Below are positions 10,801 through 21,801 of a stretch of 33,462 nt of DNA, one piece after another; position 1 is the first letter of the stretch; every line of letters starts with the position of its first letter. The DNA lies in NCBI GenBank assembly GCA_026706665.1, contig JAPOYI010000041.1, forward strand, positions 1 through 33,462. The letters run 5' to 3'. A program made the position numbers and the translations under genes. Origin of the DNA: Gammaproteobacteria bacterium. Its GTDB lineage: Bacteria; Pseudomonadota; Gammaproteobacteria; Pseudomonadales; Azotimanducaceae. The notes beneath the pieces were generated by a model. It did not search any database, was not told the DNA's origin, and saw nothing but the letters and a program-made list of their open reading frames with translations.

Positions 10801-11185
10801 CGATCTCGTGGAGTGAAATGTCCACGTCCGGATCGGGCAAGCGGTCCCCTGCGCGCTCCGGCCACTCTATCAATTTTAACGCCGACGACCCCATCAGGTC
10901 ATCGACCCCGATGAATTCGAGTTCTTCCGGGTCGACGATGCGATAGAAATCGAAGTGGAAGATCTCGCGGTCTCCCAGTGCGTAGGGTTCGAGCAGCGTG
11001 TACGTCGGGCTCTTTACCGGGCCGGTATGCCCCAGTCCCCGCAGGATGCCGCGGGCCAGCGTGGTCTTGCCGACACCGAGCTCTCCGCGCAGAAACACCA
11101 GTTCGTCGCCGAGTTGCGCGCTGAGCGCGGTGCCCCAGTCCAGGGTGGCGTCTGCATCGGGCAACTTGACGGTGGTCGTCTTCAA
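10751..11185 (-). CDS. tsaE: tRNA t6A biosynthesis ATPase TsaE
   Basis: TsaE is the ATPase of the TsaBDE complex that installs threonylcarbamoyl on A37 of ANN-decoding tRNAs. The 144-residue protein has the P-loop GELGVGKTT (34-42), SPTYTLLEPY, the HFDFYR segment (77-82) and IEWPER (106-111), all typical. The start is a TTG at 11185 that overlaps the nnr stop as TTGA; no better ATG exists nearby. Its 3' end overlaps the amidase gene by 35-50 bp. Confidence 0.95.
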   Translation of the reverse strand: MKTTTVKLPDADATLDWGTALSAQLGDELVFLRGELGVGKTTLARGILRGLGHTGPVKSPTYTLLEPYALGDREIFHFDFYRIVDPEELEFIGVDDLMGSSALKLIEWPERAGDRLPDPDVDISLHEIDGGRLLEMVDHRSLRP

Positions 11186-12639
11186 CGGTGCCGTTCAACT
11201 CCCAGCCAGAGATGTCGGACGATGTCGCTTGCGACGATGGGTTGCGGCGCCCGCCGGTCCGCGGCCAGGTCGCCCGCCGCCGCGTGAAGGGAAACCCCGG
11301 CTTCGGCGGCGGTCCGGATGTCACGCCCCTGCGCCAGCAGTCCCGCGATGATTCCCGTCAGCACGTCGCCGCTGCCGGCGGTCGCGAGCCCGGGATTCCC
11401 GGCGGTGCAGATCCCCGCGACTTCGCCCCTCTCGGCCACCAGTGTTCCCGCGCCCTTCAGCACCACGACGTTTCCGAATCGTGCGGACAGATCGCGCGCG
11501 GCGGCGGGCCGGTCGGAAACCGGGGCGCCGCCGAGCAGCCGGGCCGCTTCGCCGGGATGCGGTGTGAGGATGCTCAACGCCGGCGCGCGAAGATCGCGGG
11601 ATGCAATGAGGTTGAGGCCGTCCGCGTCGATGACCGCCGGCTTGCCGGTCGAAAGGGCCTCGTCCAGCAATTGCTCTCCCCACGGTTGTCGCCCGAGGCC
11701 GGGGCCGACGGCCACGACTGTGCAGGCCTCCAGCAGATCGCTGATGTCGTCGCCCTCCGATACGCCGCGCACCATCAGTTCCGGCATCCGCGCGAGGATG
11801 GGGGCGCGATGTTCAGGCCGGGTCAGGATGCTGACCAGTCCGCAACCGGTGCGCAGTGCCGCTTCCCCGGCAAGCAGCGTGGCGCCCCCCATGCCGCGCT
11901 CGCCGCCGATGACGAGCACGTGGCCGAACTGGTTCTTGTGTCCGGACCGCGGGCGTTCGGAGGGCGGAGGCGGGGAGACCACGGGGATGCCGGAGACGGC
12001 ATCGTAGATCCCGGCGGGGACCCCGAGGGCATCGAAGACGACTTCCCCGGCGTGATCCACTCCTTCGCCGGTGTGCAGGCCGAGTTTCTCGCCGATGAAG
12101 GTCACGGTGACGTCGGCACGGATCGCCGCACCCAATGTCGCGCCCGAGTCGGCGGAGATGCCGCTCGGGAGGTCGATGGCGAGAACCGGTCTGCCAGCGG
12201 CATTGATGGCCTCTATCGCTGCCCGGTACTGCGGCCGAAGCTCTCCCGTCGCGCCCGTTCCGAGCAGGGCGTCCACGACGACACGGCCGGCGACATCGAG
12301 CGACGCGTCGCCGCGCGGGACGCCGACATCTGCGGCCCAGTCGCGGGCGGTGGCCGCGTCGCCCTTCAGCCTGGCGGGATCGCCGACCTGGAGGAGTTGC
12401 GTGTCTATCCCGGCTTCGACGGCCATGCCGGCAACGATGTAGCCGTCGCCGGCGTTGTTCCCCGATCCGCAGGCGACCGTGATTGCGCGGCAGTCCGGCC
12501 AGCGGCGCCGCAACGTCTCGAAAGCCGCGCGGCCGGCGCGGCGCATCAGGCTGATCCCGGGAATGCCGTGGGTCTCGATGGCCGTTCGGTCGAGCTGCCG
12601 AACCTCGGCCGCGGTGTAGACTCTGCCGGGGCGGTGCAT
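11182..12639 (-). CDS. nnr: Bifunctional NAD(P)H-hydrate repair enzyme (epimerase and dehydratase)
   Basis: The protein repairs hydrated NAD(P)H: the N-terminal YjeF_N half (about 1-225) epimerises R- and S-NAD(P)HX, and the C-terminal half (about 235-480) dehydrates the S form using ADP. Visible pieces are CGSGNNAGDGYIVA and DALLGTGATGEL in the first half, and GHKNQFGHVLVIGG, DADGLNL, LTPHPGEAARLLG and TAGSGDVLTGIIAG in the second. The 485-residue length fits the fused bacterial enzyme. The ATG at 12639 lies only 25 bp from the preferred queG start on the other strand, so each promoter probably lies within the other gene. tsaE follows with a 4-bp overlap. Confidence 0.96.
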   Translation of the reverse strand: MHRPGRVYTAAEVRQLDRTAIETHGIPGISLMRRAGRAAFETLRRRWPDCRAITVACGSGNNAGDGYIVAGMAVEAGIDTQLLQVGDPARLKGDAATARDWAADVGVPRGDASLDVAGRVVVDALLGTGATGELRPQYRAAIEAINAAGRPVLAIDLPSGISADSGATLGAAIRADVTVTFIGEKLGLHTGEGVDHAGEVVFDALGVPAGIYDAVSGIPVVSPPPPSERPRSGHKNQFGHVLVIGGERGMGGATLLAGEAALRTGCGLVSILTRPEHRAPILARMPELMVRGVSEGDDISDLLEACTVVAVGPGLGRQPWGEQLLDEALSTGKPAVIDADGLNLIASRDLRAPALSILTPHPGEAARLLGGAPVSDRPAAARDLSARFGNVVVLKGAGTLVAERGEVAGICTAGNPGLATAGSGDVLTGIIAGLLAQGRDIRTAAEAGVSLHAAAGDLAADRRAPQPIVASDIVRHLWLGVERHR

Positions 12640-17449: not shown

Positions 17450-18016
17450 TCAGTCCATGGGGATGCGAATAACCACACCGCCGATGACGTCGCCGAGCTC
17501 GATGTCGGTGCGCGGCGAGTCCTTGTGGTCGTTGTGGCAATCGACGCAGGCTTCCGAGACCGCGAAGTCGGGATATACGGCGGTGAAGTAACGTTGACCC
17601 CCCAACTCCTCTTCGCCGTAGAACTTCTCTTCGTTGTCGAGGGCGTGTTGCAGGCCCTGCTGCTCCAGGTCGGTTCCGGGACCGTTTTTCCTGTTGATGG
17701 GATGCAGCGACAGCAGCGAATAGGAGAAGTCCTCCGTCTCGTCCGCCACCAGTTCGGCGCCGAAACGAAACATCTGCGCGGGAAGTGGCAGCGCGACGTC
17801 GTCTTCGAAATGCTCGGATGCGGTAATCGCCTCCTCGTCGATCGTCAGGCGCTCCACCACCAGGCGCGTATACACGCTGCGGTCCGCGGACACGACCTGG
17901 TAGATCATGTCGGTCACCTGCGGGTATGGAACGCCGGCATCGTCTGCCGCGGTTGCCGTCAACGTCAACGCCGCGCCGAGTCCGAACGCGAGGCGCTTGA
18001 GGGACTCTCGTTTCAT
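17450..18016 (-). CDS. Periplasmic Tll0287-like (DUF3365) heme protein
   Basis: This 188-residue protein is the third gene of the cytochrome operon. I start it at the ATG at 18016, which has GGGGAG about eight bases upstream and gives a clean signal peptide (MKRESLKRLAFGLGAALT, cut near residue 23-24). One heme-attachment motif, CVDCHNDH, lies at 157-161, inside the C-terminal segment YFTAVYPDFAVSEACVDCHN, then SPRTDIELGDVIGGVVIRIP, the signature of the Tll0287-like/DUF3365 fold. Such domains bind c-type heme and occur alone or as sensor domains. With a multiheme partner upstream it could be a small electron carrier or a redox sensor; the sequence does not decide. Confidence 0.85.
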   Translation of the reverse strand: MKRESLKRLAFGLGAALTLTATAADDAGVPYPQVTDMIYQVVSADRSVYTRLVVERLTIDEEAITASEHFEDDVALPLPAQMFRFGAELVADETEDFSYSLLSLHPINRKNGPGTDLEQQGLQHALDNEEKFYGEEELGGQRYFTAVYPDFAVSEACVDCHNDHKDSPRTDIELGDVIGGVVIRIPMD

Positions 18017-18058
18017 CCGACGATCTCCCCAATTTGAGAGAGTCGAATATAGCAACAT

Positions 18059-19537
18059 TCAACGGCCAGCGTCCGGCGGCTCGGCGCGCCGAACCGCCCA
18101 TTCAATGCTCTCCACGTGGACGGCGGGCCTGCCGGCGAAGTTCCGCGAGACCAGGTCGGTGTCGGCAAGCGCATCAAGAGAGAACGCCAGGCCGTGGCAA
18201 TCAAGGCAGACGGGGCGAATCATCTTCTCGTTCGGCCGCAGGCTGTCGTTCTGGTTGTGGTCGGTCGTCACCTTCCCCCGGCGCTTGCCCTTGACCATGT
18301 GACAGGTCGCGCAGCTCACGCCGGTGCCGAGAGCGGCTTCACCCGCCTGTTCCTTCAGCCACAACGCGTGGTGCGGGCTGCCGAAATACGCCCGCGTATG
18401 GAGGTCGTCGTGGCAGGACGCGCAGGCCGCGACGGCAGCGTGTTCGATGTCGACCGCGTGAGAGTCATGGCAGGTTCCGCAATCGAGCGGCTCGGTCGGA
18501 GCGTCGATTCGCATGGGCAGGCGCGCCTCGGCCGCGTGCATGTGCGTCGGCGGCACAGGATCCGACAACCTGGCTGAGATCGTCTCCGGCAGTGTCGCGT
18601 CGACCCCAAGCGTTGCGAGCCCCTGGCCCGGTTCCCGGGGCACCGCGATCTCGGGATGCTGCCGCATGCCATGCCGGCCCAGCGCGAAGGTGCGGACTTC
18701 CTGCCGATGGCAGTCGCGGCAGACGGAGACGGAGGGAGAGTCGGTCCACGCCGCCTCGACATCGCCTTGCAAGCCGCCTTCGGCGAAATCCGGGGCGTGG
18801 CAATCGGCGCATGCCACGCCCGCTTCCGCGTGACCGGAACCGGCCCAATGCGCGACGATCGCCGCATCCGCGAGTGCGACTGCGGGTGCCGCGACGGCGC
18901 CCGGTCCGATCGCCGATTCCTCCGGCGGTTCCCAAGCGCGGTACTGGGCCGACAGCGCGTGGACCGGCTCGGCCTTGAGCCAGGGTTGCCCGGCGTGCCT
19001 GACGAGGAAGTCCTCGTAGAGCGCGCGGTTGTCGTGGTAGTTGTGGCACCCGGCGCAGGTATCGAACGAAAGGCCTTCATGGCTCGGCCGGGTCGCCCGG
19101 ATGTCCTGTTCCCCCTCGGAGTGACACGCGACGCAGAAGTCCATGGCGACGGTCACGGCGCTCGCCCGCGTGATATCCGGGCGATGCTCGACATGACAGC
19201 TCGTGCAGTAGCGCGCGTCGACCTTCTCCCGGTAGGCGGCCATCCTTGGACTGCGGAATCTCTTTCGGGAGTGGCTGTCGTCGGCGTCGTCGAGCGCATC
19301 TTCGTGACATTTCCTGCAGGTCTTGTTGAGTTCATTCTTCGCCGTCTCGGCATCGGCGAACGCGGGCGCCGCGTGGCAGGTTTCGCAGGCCATTTCGAGC
19401 TGGTGGTGCGCGTCGGTCGTTGCGCCGATGAGCAGTGCCCGGCGGTCGCCGCCGACCATCATCAGGACCACGACGACCCCCACGGCAACCAGGGTGCCCA
19501 CCGTGGACATGGTCGCGATGACAGCATTTCGGGACAC
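18059..19537 (-). CDS. Membrane-anchored undecaheme c-type cytochrome
   Basis: This 492-residue protein has one N-terminal membrane anchor (about 8-29) and eleven CXXCH motifs beginning at residues 51, 74, 111, 135, 161, 243, 273, 353, 372, 409 and 444. No CXXCK or CX4CH variant is seen, so there is no NrfA-style catalytic site; an electron conduit is more likely than a reductase. Five hemes cluster in the first 165 residues, two in the middle and four near the C-terminus, suggesting modules. The start is a GTG at 19537; an ATG at 19510 is an alternative that shortens the anchor. It lies 12 bp after the GPP34-cytochrome b gene and 42 bp before the DUF3365 gene. I cannot assign a named family or substrate. 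Confidence 0.88.
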   Translation of the reverse strand: MSRNAVIATMSTVGTLVAVGVVVVLMMVGGDRRALLIGATTDAHHQLEMACETCHAAPAFADAETAKNELNKTCRKCHEDALDDADDSHSRKRFRSPRMAAYREKVDARYCTSCHVEHRPDITRASAVTVAMDFCVACHSEGEQDIRATRPSHEGLSFDTCAGCHNYHDNRALYEDFLVRHAGQPWLKAEPVHALSAQYRAWEPPEESAIGPGAVAAPAVALADAAIVAHWAGSGHAEAGVACADCHAPDFAEGGLQGDVEAAWTDSPSVSVCRDCHRQEVRTFALGRHGMRQHPEIAVPREPGQGLATLGVDATLPETISARLSDPVPPTHMHAAEARLPMRIDAPTEPLDCGTCHDSHAVDIEHAAVAACASCHDDLHTRAYFGSPHHALWLKEQAGEAALGTGVSCATCHMVKGKRRGKVTTDHNQNDSLRPNEKMIRPVCLDCHGLAFSLDALADTDLVSRNFAGRPAVHVESIEWAVRRAEPPDAGR

Positions 19538-19549
19538 GCGCGGGTTCCG

Positions 19550-20722
19550 TCAGTAGAGGTACACGATGAGGAGGTGGATGACGAGCAGCGCGGGCAGAGT
19601 GCACAGCGCGATGACATGCACCCGCATCGGAAGGCGGGTCAGCCTTCCGGCCTGGGCAAACCCGAAGCGCCGCAGCTGGGTGGCGCCGCCCATCAGAATC
19701 CCGGCGAACGCGCCGGATACCAGCGCGGCGAGGTAGCAGCCCATGAGCACGGCATTGAGGTTGTAGCCGAGGCGAAAGCCGGTATGGACGAACAGGAGCA
19801 GCACGCAGGACAAGCCAAGCCCGACATGCATGACCCGCCACCAGTTCTGATCGCCAATCTTCGCCGCAAACCGCATCCTCCTGAGGGAGGCGGCCGCGAA
19901 ACCGAGGACGCTCAAGGCCAGGAGCACGTACCCGCTCCATTCCTGCCAGGCGCCGTCGCCCCAGAGACGCTCGAGCAGCGTCGGGCCGAACCGGTCGGGC
20001 ACGGGGATGCGGGGCGCAAGAACGGTGGCAAGTGTTGCGATCCCGCCAATTGCGGCCAACGCCAGCACGTATCTTCGAAAGCGCGCCAGTCGCGCGCGGA
20101 CCGCCATCAGCATGGTGCGTTGAATGGCGGCGATGGCACCGGCGACCTCGCGGCCAATCAGGTCCATGATGCGAAGCTGCCGGATCCGGGGGGTCGCCTG
20201 CTCGATCTCCCTTTCCGAGAGCACTTCCGGAAAGATGCTGCATGCGTCACACAGCGCGATTCGCACGACGTCCCGGGGGTCAGGGATATCGTCGGCGAGC
20301 ACCACTTCGCGGATATGCAGCTTGATTTCCCGCTGGGCCGTACCATCGCGCATGGGGTAGTGCTCGACCCGTCGCCGCTCGCGCTGTTCGAGGATGCCGC
20401 GGTCGACCAGGCTGGCCAGTGCCTGCTCCCGAATGGTGTTGGCCTCTTCGCGGGCCAGCAGCCTCACCCAGGACTGTGCGTCCATCACTTCTGGATGGGT
20501 GGCGATCCTGGCCAGGATGCGGTCAAGCATCGCCAGGCCGGTCGGATTCTCGTTGAGGACGATGAGCGATTCGAGGTCGGTGTCGATTCGGAGCGCGAAC
20601 GCCAGATCCATCAACGTGGCGCCAGCCAGGGCGCACTCGAACGCGTTGCTGTTGACCGGCAGGAAGGCGCCGTCCTCCTCACCGAGCAGCAGCAGGAGTA
20701 TCTCTTCCGTGAAGGTGAGCAT
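19550..20722 (-). CDS. GOLPH3/GPP34-type domain fused to a di-heme cytochrome b-like membrane domain
   Basis: The first gene of the cytochrome operon encodes 390 residues in two parts. Residues 1 to about 200 resemble the GPP34 (GOLPH3/Vps74) fold: LTFTEEILLLLL, ALAGATLMDLAF, then IVLNENPTG, a helix with ARIA, and LASLVDRGILEQR. Residues about 218-390 hold five predicted membrane segments. Segment three contains His299 and His313, and segment five His369 and His383; both pairs are 14 apart, the spacing of bis-His heme b pairs in four-helix bundles. The GPP34 part should be cytoplasmic. Eukaryotic GOLPH3 binds phosphoinositide and glycosyltransferases; what the domain binds here is unknown. 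The ATG at 20722 has no strong ribosome binding site. The heme assignment is inference from spacing. Confidence 0.8.
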   Translation of the reverse strand: MLTFTEEILLLLLGEEDGAFLPVNSNAFECALAGATLMDLAFALRIDTDLESLIVLNENPTGLAMLDRILARIATHPEVMDAQSWVRLLAREEANTIREQALASLVDRGILEQRERRRVEHYPMRDGTAQREIKLHIREVVLADDIPDPRDVVRIALCDACSIFPEVLSEREIEQATPRIRQLRIMDLIGREVAGAIAAIQRTMLMAVRARLARFRRYVLALAAIGGIATLATVLAPRIPVPDRFGPTLLERLWGDGAWQEWSGYVLLALSVLGFAAASLRRMRFAAKIGDQNWWRVMHVGLGLSCVLLLFVHTGFRLGYNLNAVLMGCYLAALVSGAFAGILMGGATQLRRFGFAQAGRLTRLPMRVHVIALCTLPALLVIHLLIVYLY

Positions 20723-21069: not shown

Positions 21070-21801
21070 GTGGCTTGCCAGACCAACTGGGGGTTGCAAA
21101 TCGACACGGACGATCCGGAAATCCCTGAACCGGCGACGCGCGACTTGGCGTCGAAGCTGGAGCGACTAGGCTGCGGGAAGCCGGAATTGCTCGCCCGAAG
21201 AGGTTCTGTCGTCAAGTACGACCACGGTGTGATCGTCTCATCGAGCGACCTCTCCCACTTGCACCTGATTCTCGACGGCGTGATTCAGATCATGCACTAC
21301 TCGGTGTCCGGCCGTTCGGTTCTGGTGCACGAATTCGGGGCCGGGCAGCCATTCGGCGGCTGCGACATGCCGGGCGACGAGCGCGTGCCGACACAGGCTG
21401 TCGCTAACGACAACGTAACCGCCCTGCGATTCAGGGGCTGGAACAGTCTCGACGCCGCGCGCAACGACGCCGGATTCGGGTTGATTCTGCTCGAGCACGC
21501 CTTGTCAGTGGCCTCGACCCTTGCCGGGCGTCTGATCGAACTGACGGTGGAGCGAGCGCGTGATCGGGTCCGTCTTGAACTTGTGAGACAGGCGCGTCAG
21601 AACATGCTCGACGAACAAGCAGGCCTCGTCGAGCCCGCTCCGACGCATTTAGATTTGGCGATTCAAGTCGGATCCCACCGGGAAGAAGTCTCCCGCGAGA
21701 TGAGCTACCTGAGGCGGCACGCGCTGATCGAGCGGGTCGGCACCGCCTTGAGGGTGCGCGTAGACGCGCTCGAGGAGTTGTACCAGCGGGGGCAGGTGTA
21801 A
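21070..21801 (+). CDS. Crp/Fnr-family transcriptional regulator
   Basis: The 243-residue protein has an N-terminal cyclic-nucleotide-type beta-barrel (about 45-125), a long dimerisation helix (about 132-175) and a winged helix-turn-helix (about 188-235). The recognition helix reads SHREEVSRE, with Arg204, Glu205 and Arg209 at the same spacing as Arg180, Glu181 and Arg185 of E. coli CRP, which read TGTGA. The effector pocket is not clearly CRP-like: where CRP has ERSAWV this protein has ERVPTQ. There is no Fnr-style N-terminal Cys cluster. The start is a GTG at 21070 with no strong ribosome binding site, so the first 20 residues are uncertain. It is divergent from the cytochrome operon and lies between two TGTGA-N6-TCACA sites. 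Confidence 0.87.
   Translation: MACQTNWGLQIDTDDPEIPEPATRDLASKLERLGCGKPELLARRGSVVKYDHGVIVSSSDLSHLHLILDGVIQIMHYSVSGRSVLVHEFGAGQPFGGCDMPGDERVPTQAVANDNVTALRFRGWNSLDAARNDAGFGLILLEHALSVASTLAGRLIELTVERARDRVRLELVRQARQNMLDEQAGLVEPAPTHLDLAIQVGSHREEVSREMSYLRRHALIERVGTALRVRVDALEELYQRGQV

Follow-up and report, generated by a model that had tools for sequence, protein, structure and literature searches.

What does a GPP34 domain do at the head of a membrane protein that resembles a di-heme cytochrome b? Bacterial GPP34 domains have been little studied, and one of them is joined to such a membrane domain in the window (the whole 33,462-nt stretch of DNA analysed here). The 390-codon ORF on which a preliminary description of this DNA was based, and for which no strand had been given, exists and lies on the minus strand. 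The fusion gene heads a tight three-gene operon, with gaps of 12 nt and 0 nt. The features concerned are as follows.

21070..21801, plus strand: CRP/FNR-type regulator, divergent neighbour (Pfam HTH_Crp_2 and cNMP_binding)
19550..20722, minus strand: GPP34–cytochrome b fusion protein, 390 aa (open frame, ATG start; full-length homologues at loci L033–L052 and L005–L007)
20126..20707, minus strand: GPP34 domain, residues 6–199, predicted cytoplasmic (Pfam PF05719, E 5.2e-33)
19553..20110, minus strand: membrane domain, residues 205–390, putative di-heme cytochrome b, approximately five helices (hydropathy, invariant columns, positive-inside loops)
19826..19828, minus strand: His299, putative cytoplasm-side heme ligand (21/21 fusions; 28/28 class-wide rows)
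19784..19786, minus strand: His313, putative periplasm-side heme ligand (21/21 fusions; 28/28 class-wide rows)
19616..19618, minus strand: His369, putative cytoplasm-side heme ligand (21/21 fusions; 28/28 class-wide rows)
19574..19576, minus strand: His383, putative periplasm-side heme ligand (21/21 fusions; 28/28 class-wide rows)
18059..19537, minus strand: 11-heme cytochrome c, 492 aa, with an N-terminal hydrophobic anchor, presumably periplasmic (GTG start; 11 CXXCH motifs)
17450..18058, minus strand: Tll0287-like (sCache_heme) single c-heme protein (Pfam PF11845, E 4.4e-19)

The fusion protein, its membrane domain and its operon

Relatives of the query were found in 116 stretches of the genome collection. 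Among the best 80 of these, which were examined, the full fusion was present at 20 loci (L033–L052) from 17 assemblies; L005 and L033 are probably one contig. A full-length fusion was also detected in four of 58 genomes of relatives, the source genome included (G000, G005, G007 and G008). In G004, which belongs to the same genus, the fusion was matched in two separate pieces (G004:C1:1554892–1555370) and may be decaying. Both halves of the fusion were under purifying selection, with dN/dS values of 0.03–0.33 in six pairs. Since the draft genome that contains the window is split into 252 contigs, an assembly or annotation artefact could in principle produce such a protein. This explanation can be dismissed with near certainty, being ruled out by the independent assemblies in which the same fusion recurs, two of the 20 loci lying on chromosome records (OY282430.1 and OY282447.1), and opposed by the constraint acting on both halves. 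The observed combination of the fusion with conserved histidine pairs is far above chance expectation.

A hydropathy scan of the region following the GPP34 part gave five segments, the number originally proposed for the window protein, at 17 of the 20 fusion loci, four each at L048 and L051 and three at L052. The two conserved histidine pairs of the preliminary description, H299/H313 and H369/H383, each 14 residues apart, were recovered throughout. All four residues were invariant in the 21 aligned fusion proteins (window and L033–L052), among which the remaining three histidines of the window protein were variable, and in 15 of 15 rows of an alignment that included four of the FAD-type proteins described below. 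Most rows of a 34-row alignment (A4) had been picked by a pattern requiring the four histidines, and invariance in A4 is partly by choice; the class-wide count of 28/28 rests on rows not selected by this pattern. The pattern with both pairs occurred at 26 of 28 class-wide places, which were chosen by profile; the other two (L135 and L139) missed it only by a serine in place of threonine after the second histidine, and both H-x13-H pairs were present in each.

When the 34 members were searched singly against Pfam, 19 matched DUF4405, five Ni_hydr_CYTB, five DUF4079 and three Ferric_reduct; the matches were weak, save for the best Ni_hydr_CYTB match (2e-6). We take these four families to form together one di-heme cytochrome clan. 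A match to an ATPase C-terminus in five of the 34 members was put down to chance. Using hhalign, A4 showed a weak similarity, of 40 % (E 2.9e-4), to prokaryotic cytochrome b561 (PF01292, 16 of 20 fetched members), compared with 17.5 % for A4 against its own reverse and 0.6 % for reversed targets and a permease family. Against the MsrQ/NOX ferric reductase family (PF01794, 13 of 20 fetched members) the score was 0.3 %, which is no signal; membership in that family was rejected on this ground and because Ferric_reduct was matched, weakly, by only three of the 34 members. In both attempts AlphaFold gave the membrane part a low confidence (pLDDT near 55; 55.7, with pTM 0.33, when it was modelled alone). 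The mean numbers of K+R in successive loops over 21 rows were 5.1, 2.4, 5.6, 1.0 and 5.7, and because of these charges the GPP34 domain is predicted to be cytoplasmic. The membrane domain is described here as a putative di-heme cytochrome b, a designation that presumes from sequence both heme binding and histidines that face each other.

The 11-heme cytochrome c gene adjoined the fusion gene at all 20 loci. The Tll0287-like gene, whose true start may be an ATG 14 codons inside the ORF, was present at 18 of the 20; it was not in the L038 flank, and locus L040 stops too soon to show it. In an alignment of 42 cytochrome c rows covering both operon types, the 11 motif histidines and exactly 11 further histidines were conserved in at least 41 rows; therefore every heme could be bis-His, an arrangement that would suit an electron wire better than an enzyme. 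The CRP/FNR-type regulator was found only at L005/L033 among L005–L007 and L033–L052, several of the other loci having little DNA on that side, and it probably lies outside the conserved unit. Clustering of the flanks revealed no further neighbour gene common to more than three fusion loci; the gene caller used overlooked frames, recovering the fusion gene at only 13 of the 20.

The GPP34 domain: fold, lipid pocket and origin

The assignment of residues 1–200 to the GPP34 fold, as first proposed, was confirmed by three approaches. Pfam GPP34 (PF05719) matched residues 6–199 with 115.2 bits against a cut-off of 29.1. A search of the PDB with a profile of 30 relatives (21 fusions and nine stand-alone copies) retrieved human GOLPH3 (E 7.8e-19). 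Foldseek matched the structure predicted for the domain (AlphaFold, pLDDT mostly 84–96, with one block of ten at 70) to GOLPH3 chain 9qpq_B (E 4.9e-10, TM-score 0.71 by target length) and to 3kn1 (TM-score 0.69). The so-called Gpp34 pesticidal proteins share only the name with this domain.

The domain thus belongs to the same family and fold as GOLPH3 and Vps74, Golgi proteins of animals and yeast, which accords with the earlier suggestion of a lipid- or protein-sensing module, taken here as one that senses a phosphoinositide-like lipid. The domain differs from GOLPH3 and Vps74 in being covalently joined to its membrane protein and in having largely lost the PI4P pocket. In GOLPH3 this pocket is formed by W81, R90, R171 and R174, according to PMC4414131 and PMC13408441. 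Only one of these four residues was kept in the window protein (R98). Equivalents of W81, R90 and R171 were missing in 30 of 30 aligned GPP34 domains, whereas that of R174, the one point of the pocket in favour of lipid binding, was conserved in 29 of 30. The hydrophobic tip of the membrane-inserting hairpin (GOLPH3 190–201) was deleted in the window protein and in L033, shortened in L052 and present in most relatives (alignments read by eye). In the human protein R90L alone largely abolishes Golgi localisation, as stated in PMC13408441. The PI4P route is therefore very unlikely, since three of the four pocket residues are gone and the window protein is without the hairpin tip, and phosphoinositide sensing was rejected.

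Nine bacterial stand-alone copies aligned with the fused GPP34 domain at 45–58 % identity, compared with 21–23 % for GOLPH3. A phylogenetic tree was built from 81 GPP34 domains; those fused to the cytochrome, 21 in number, formed one clade (0.949) within a 50-tip clade (0.991). Because the fused clade nests among bacterial copies, the fused domain was most likely derived from a bacterial stand-alone family. A direct gift of GPP34 from a sponge host was considered and found unsupported by these identities and this nesting, in a comparison that covered bacterial copies and GOLPH3. The prefixes RHO and COS, one or other of which is present at six of the 20 fusion loci, appear to be sponge host names, judging from the species list in PMC8163846.

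GPP34 was above the cut-off in nine of 398 genomes of a phylum sample. The membrane domain occurred once in the source genome and GPP34 several times, in one case fused to a cytochrome P450; additional partial GPP34 copies lie at G000:C57:2140–2460 and 11161–11525. The GPP34–cytochrome P450 fusion, of approximately 680–700 aa, was identified by Pfam both in the source genome (L003:1447–3489, on G000:C156) and at L097:7884–9995. Fifteen loci of L095–L111 (L096 and L109 excepted, L097 included) formed one clade of the GPP34 tree (0.926), L097 being the one in which the P450 was tested with Pfam. At L109:7833–9878, GPP34 is joined to a sugar-transporter-like MFS protein. Another bacterial GPP34 domain is found in the GOLPH3-like protein SCO4440 of Streptomyces, whose neighbour sco4439 encodes a carboxypeptidase; in PMC12402492, the one experimental paper found on such proteins, mutation of sco4439/40 is reported to affect wall-deficient cell formation and GOLPH3-like proteins are described as previously undescribed in prokaryotes.

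Sister operons with a flavin and iron–sulfur module

The membrane domain was detected at E 1e-8 in 27 of 369 genomes of the class, at 28 places. Two of these places were GPP34 fusions (L113 and L114) and 23 were long frames that begin with a Rossmann-type segment; a BFD-like cysteine pattern was also present in 19 of the 23 (both by inspection). The remainder comprised L131, cut by a contig end, L135, which has no reductase module, and L139, with another reductase type. Pfam identified Pyr_redox_2, Rubredoxin_C and Fer2_BFD in all four FAD-type proteins tested (L017, L018, L020 and L153). L139 and L206 instead possess BFD with FAD_binding_6 and NAD_binding_1, a ferredoxin-reductase-type module; of these two, only L206 is adjoined by a multiheme gene of the 11-heme type. 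A frame with at least 10 CXXCH motifs lay beside 25 of the 28 class-wide places, the exceptions being L122, with four, and L136 and L139, with none in the stretch examined. The L135 relative, a 298-aa frame without the FAD part, also adjoins an 11-heme-type gene. In the phylum sample of 398 genomes the domain was present in 20 at E 1e-6, with three strong cases (G000, G051 and G547).

NAD(P)H-FAD-BFD-cytochrome b/11-heme cytochrome c/Tll0287 operons were seen in Gammaproteobacteria at L141–L160, except L156 (for example L153:8056–12529), several of them with globin, nitrate-type transport and ANTAR genes. FAD-type and fusion operons have in common the membrane domain with its four histidines, the 11-heme partner, the Tll0287 third gene and the gene order. 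They differ in the cytoplasmic module, which is a flavin/iron–sulfur reductase in the former and GPP34 in the latter. They differ also in their surroundings: nitrate-type transport, ANTAR or globin genes were nearby in approximately eight of 20 larger regions (19 FAD-type and one fusion) and were not found at the fusion loci. Clustering of these 20 regions, in which the clusters may include spurious frames and one example of each neighbour cluster was checked by Pfam, gave a monoheme cytochrome at seven loci, a globin at eight, a truncated globin at four, an NMT1-type binding protein at eight, a permease at eight, an ABC ATPase at nine and an ANTAR regulator at eight. Molybdopterin oxidoreductase and NirB-like genes occurred at some of the loci. 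Together, the transport, ANTAR, globin, molybdopterin oxidoreductase and NirB-like neighbours suggest a role of the FAD-type operons in nitrate assimilation. Among those extra neighbours of the FAD type that were searched for at the 20 fusion loci and in the window, only generic ABC ATPases (two loci) were found.

Trees of the cytochrome b, the cytochrome c and both jointly were reconstructed from 42 rows; L146, for which no cytochrome c frame could be located, was dropped. In these trees the 24 GPP34 rows (probably 23 distinct, as L156 and L051 are probably one locus) formed one clade, with support of 1.0 in the joint tree. Of the three trees, only that of cytochrome b showed the FAD type as a clade; all were midpoint-rooted, and any direction of module swap is to be read with that rooting.

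No description of the GPP34–cytochrome b fusion was found among the papers listed in searches of the open-licence literature, in keeping with the preliminary description, whose author knew of no described protein with this architecture. The FAD-type/11-heme operon was likewise not found described there, nor in passages of PMC4013037. The FAD-type operon, standing near nitrate-type transport and globin genes, appears to be an electron-export system that those papers do not describe, and it may occur in culturable Gammaproteobacteria. The third gene belongs to the Tll0287/sCache_heme proteins, for whose stand-alone members redox roles have been proposed and of which the signalling-type members bind NO; the terms 'operon' and 'cytochrome b' are absent from the main text of PMC12889525, the source of these statements.

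Proposed electron export and the position of GPP34

More can be learned about function from the partners in the operon and from the FAD-type sisters of the protein than from the GPP34 label. As the same membrane domain and 11-heme partner elsewhere carry an NAD(P)H-FAD-[2Fe-2S] module, GPP34 stands at the usual site of electron input. The most plausible course of electrons in the sister proteins is outward from NAD(P)H, and the shared part is therefore best read as an exporter. The fusion protein would accordingly form the section of a trans-membrane electron exporter that lies in the inner membrane, and its GPP34 domain would dock or gate a donor that is a distinct cytosolic protein, a reading to which we assign a probability of about 0.6. 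Its exporter part is well supported by context, and the docking or gating role is suggested by the position of the domain.

Electrons would enter the cytochrome b domain at its cytoplasm-side hemes (H299/H369), move on to those of the periplasm side (H313/H383) and be taken up by the anchored 11-heme cytochrome c, which could conduct them like a wire to an acceptor in the periplasm, the Tll0287-type cytochrome or another; heme binding, the direction of flow and the acceptor are presumed in this scheme. Most of the relatives examined have a built-in input, from NAD(P)H via FAD to the [2Fe-2S] BFD domain. In the fusion the reductase module is missing and its position is occupied by GPP34, for which, to our knowledge, no redox cofactor is known, and for these two reasons the donor would have to be a separate protein or a quinol. 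GPP34 most likely docks or gates a separate donor. A precedent is offered by E. coli MsrQ, a cytochrome b without a reductase module of its own, which receives its electrons from a separate cytosolic flavin reductase, Fre (PMC11031084). The likeness to MsrQ and the NOX-type ferric reductases is functional only, in that a membrane cytochrome b exports electrons and MsrQ has a separate flavin reductase; the fusion system gave no homology signal against them in profile comparison and has an 11-heme cytochrome c as partner.

Candidate donors were sought in two ways. No donor gene conserved next to the fusion was seen in the flanks of the fusion loci, where the gene caller missed frames. A search of the source genome with the FAD part of the sister proteins gave three matches, which by eye were ferredoxin-reductase-like or disulfide-reductase-like and were without BFD.

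The lack of a nearby donor gene and of a known GPP34 cofactor would also be expected if the cytochrome b were fed by membrane quinol and GPP34 served only as a tether for assembly or positioning, without contributing to electron input. Quinol is a common electron source of di-heme b proteins, and the existence of the L135 relative is a further point in favour. Against this, the homologous operons mostly have an NAD(P)H-FAD-FeS input, and GPP34 was under purifying selection in all six pairs, from which it follows that the domain does something; we regard quinol feeding with a tether as rather improbable. Alternatively, GPP34 could be a signalling module that binds a STAS-type or other protein, by which electron export would be turned on or off. 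Of 43 stand-alone GPP34 loci (L053–L094 and L112), 19 had a STAS-like gene in the flank, 15 of these genes lying within 900 nt upstream, and Pfam STAS was found in both genes tested (L082:7617–7988 and L053:7647–7979). The 50-tip clade in which the fused clade is nested contains all 19 STAS-associated copies. Bacterial GPP34 may thus have a connection with partner switching. However, a STAS-like gene was found at none of the 20 fusion loci within the flanks examined, and at only one (L014) of 20 further GPP34 loci with shorter flanks, among them the stand-alone copy of the source genome (L002). In the set labelled P450 it was present at one of 16 loci, L096, which itself has no P450-length frame. 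Switching by such a partner is considered unlikely.

A broader proposal, put forward as a speculation with the odds clearly against it, is that in a single lineage of Alpha- and Gammaproteobacteria, which apparently includes sponge symbionts, the flavin/iron–sulfur input was swapped for a GPP34 domain of a STAS-linked family, whereby NAD(P)H-driven export would have become export gated by protein docking or partner switching. If true, this would assign a defined molecular function to a bacterial GPP34 domain and, together with the GPP34–P450 and GPP34–transporter fusions, would point to a general adaptor role in bacteria. Docking or gating of a donor by GPP34, the preferred reading, is open to experiment in that a GPP34 domain in the usual reductase position gives a direct test of domain function.

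Distant relatives of the membrane domain at L207:2–1390 and L208:2–1306 lie beside a protein with two cNMP domains and multiple 4Fe-4S clusters and represent another input type; the L207 locus also contains a frame with several CXXCH motifs.
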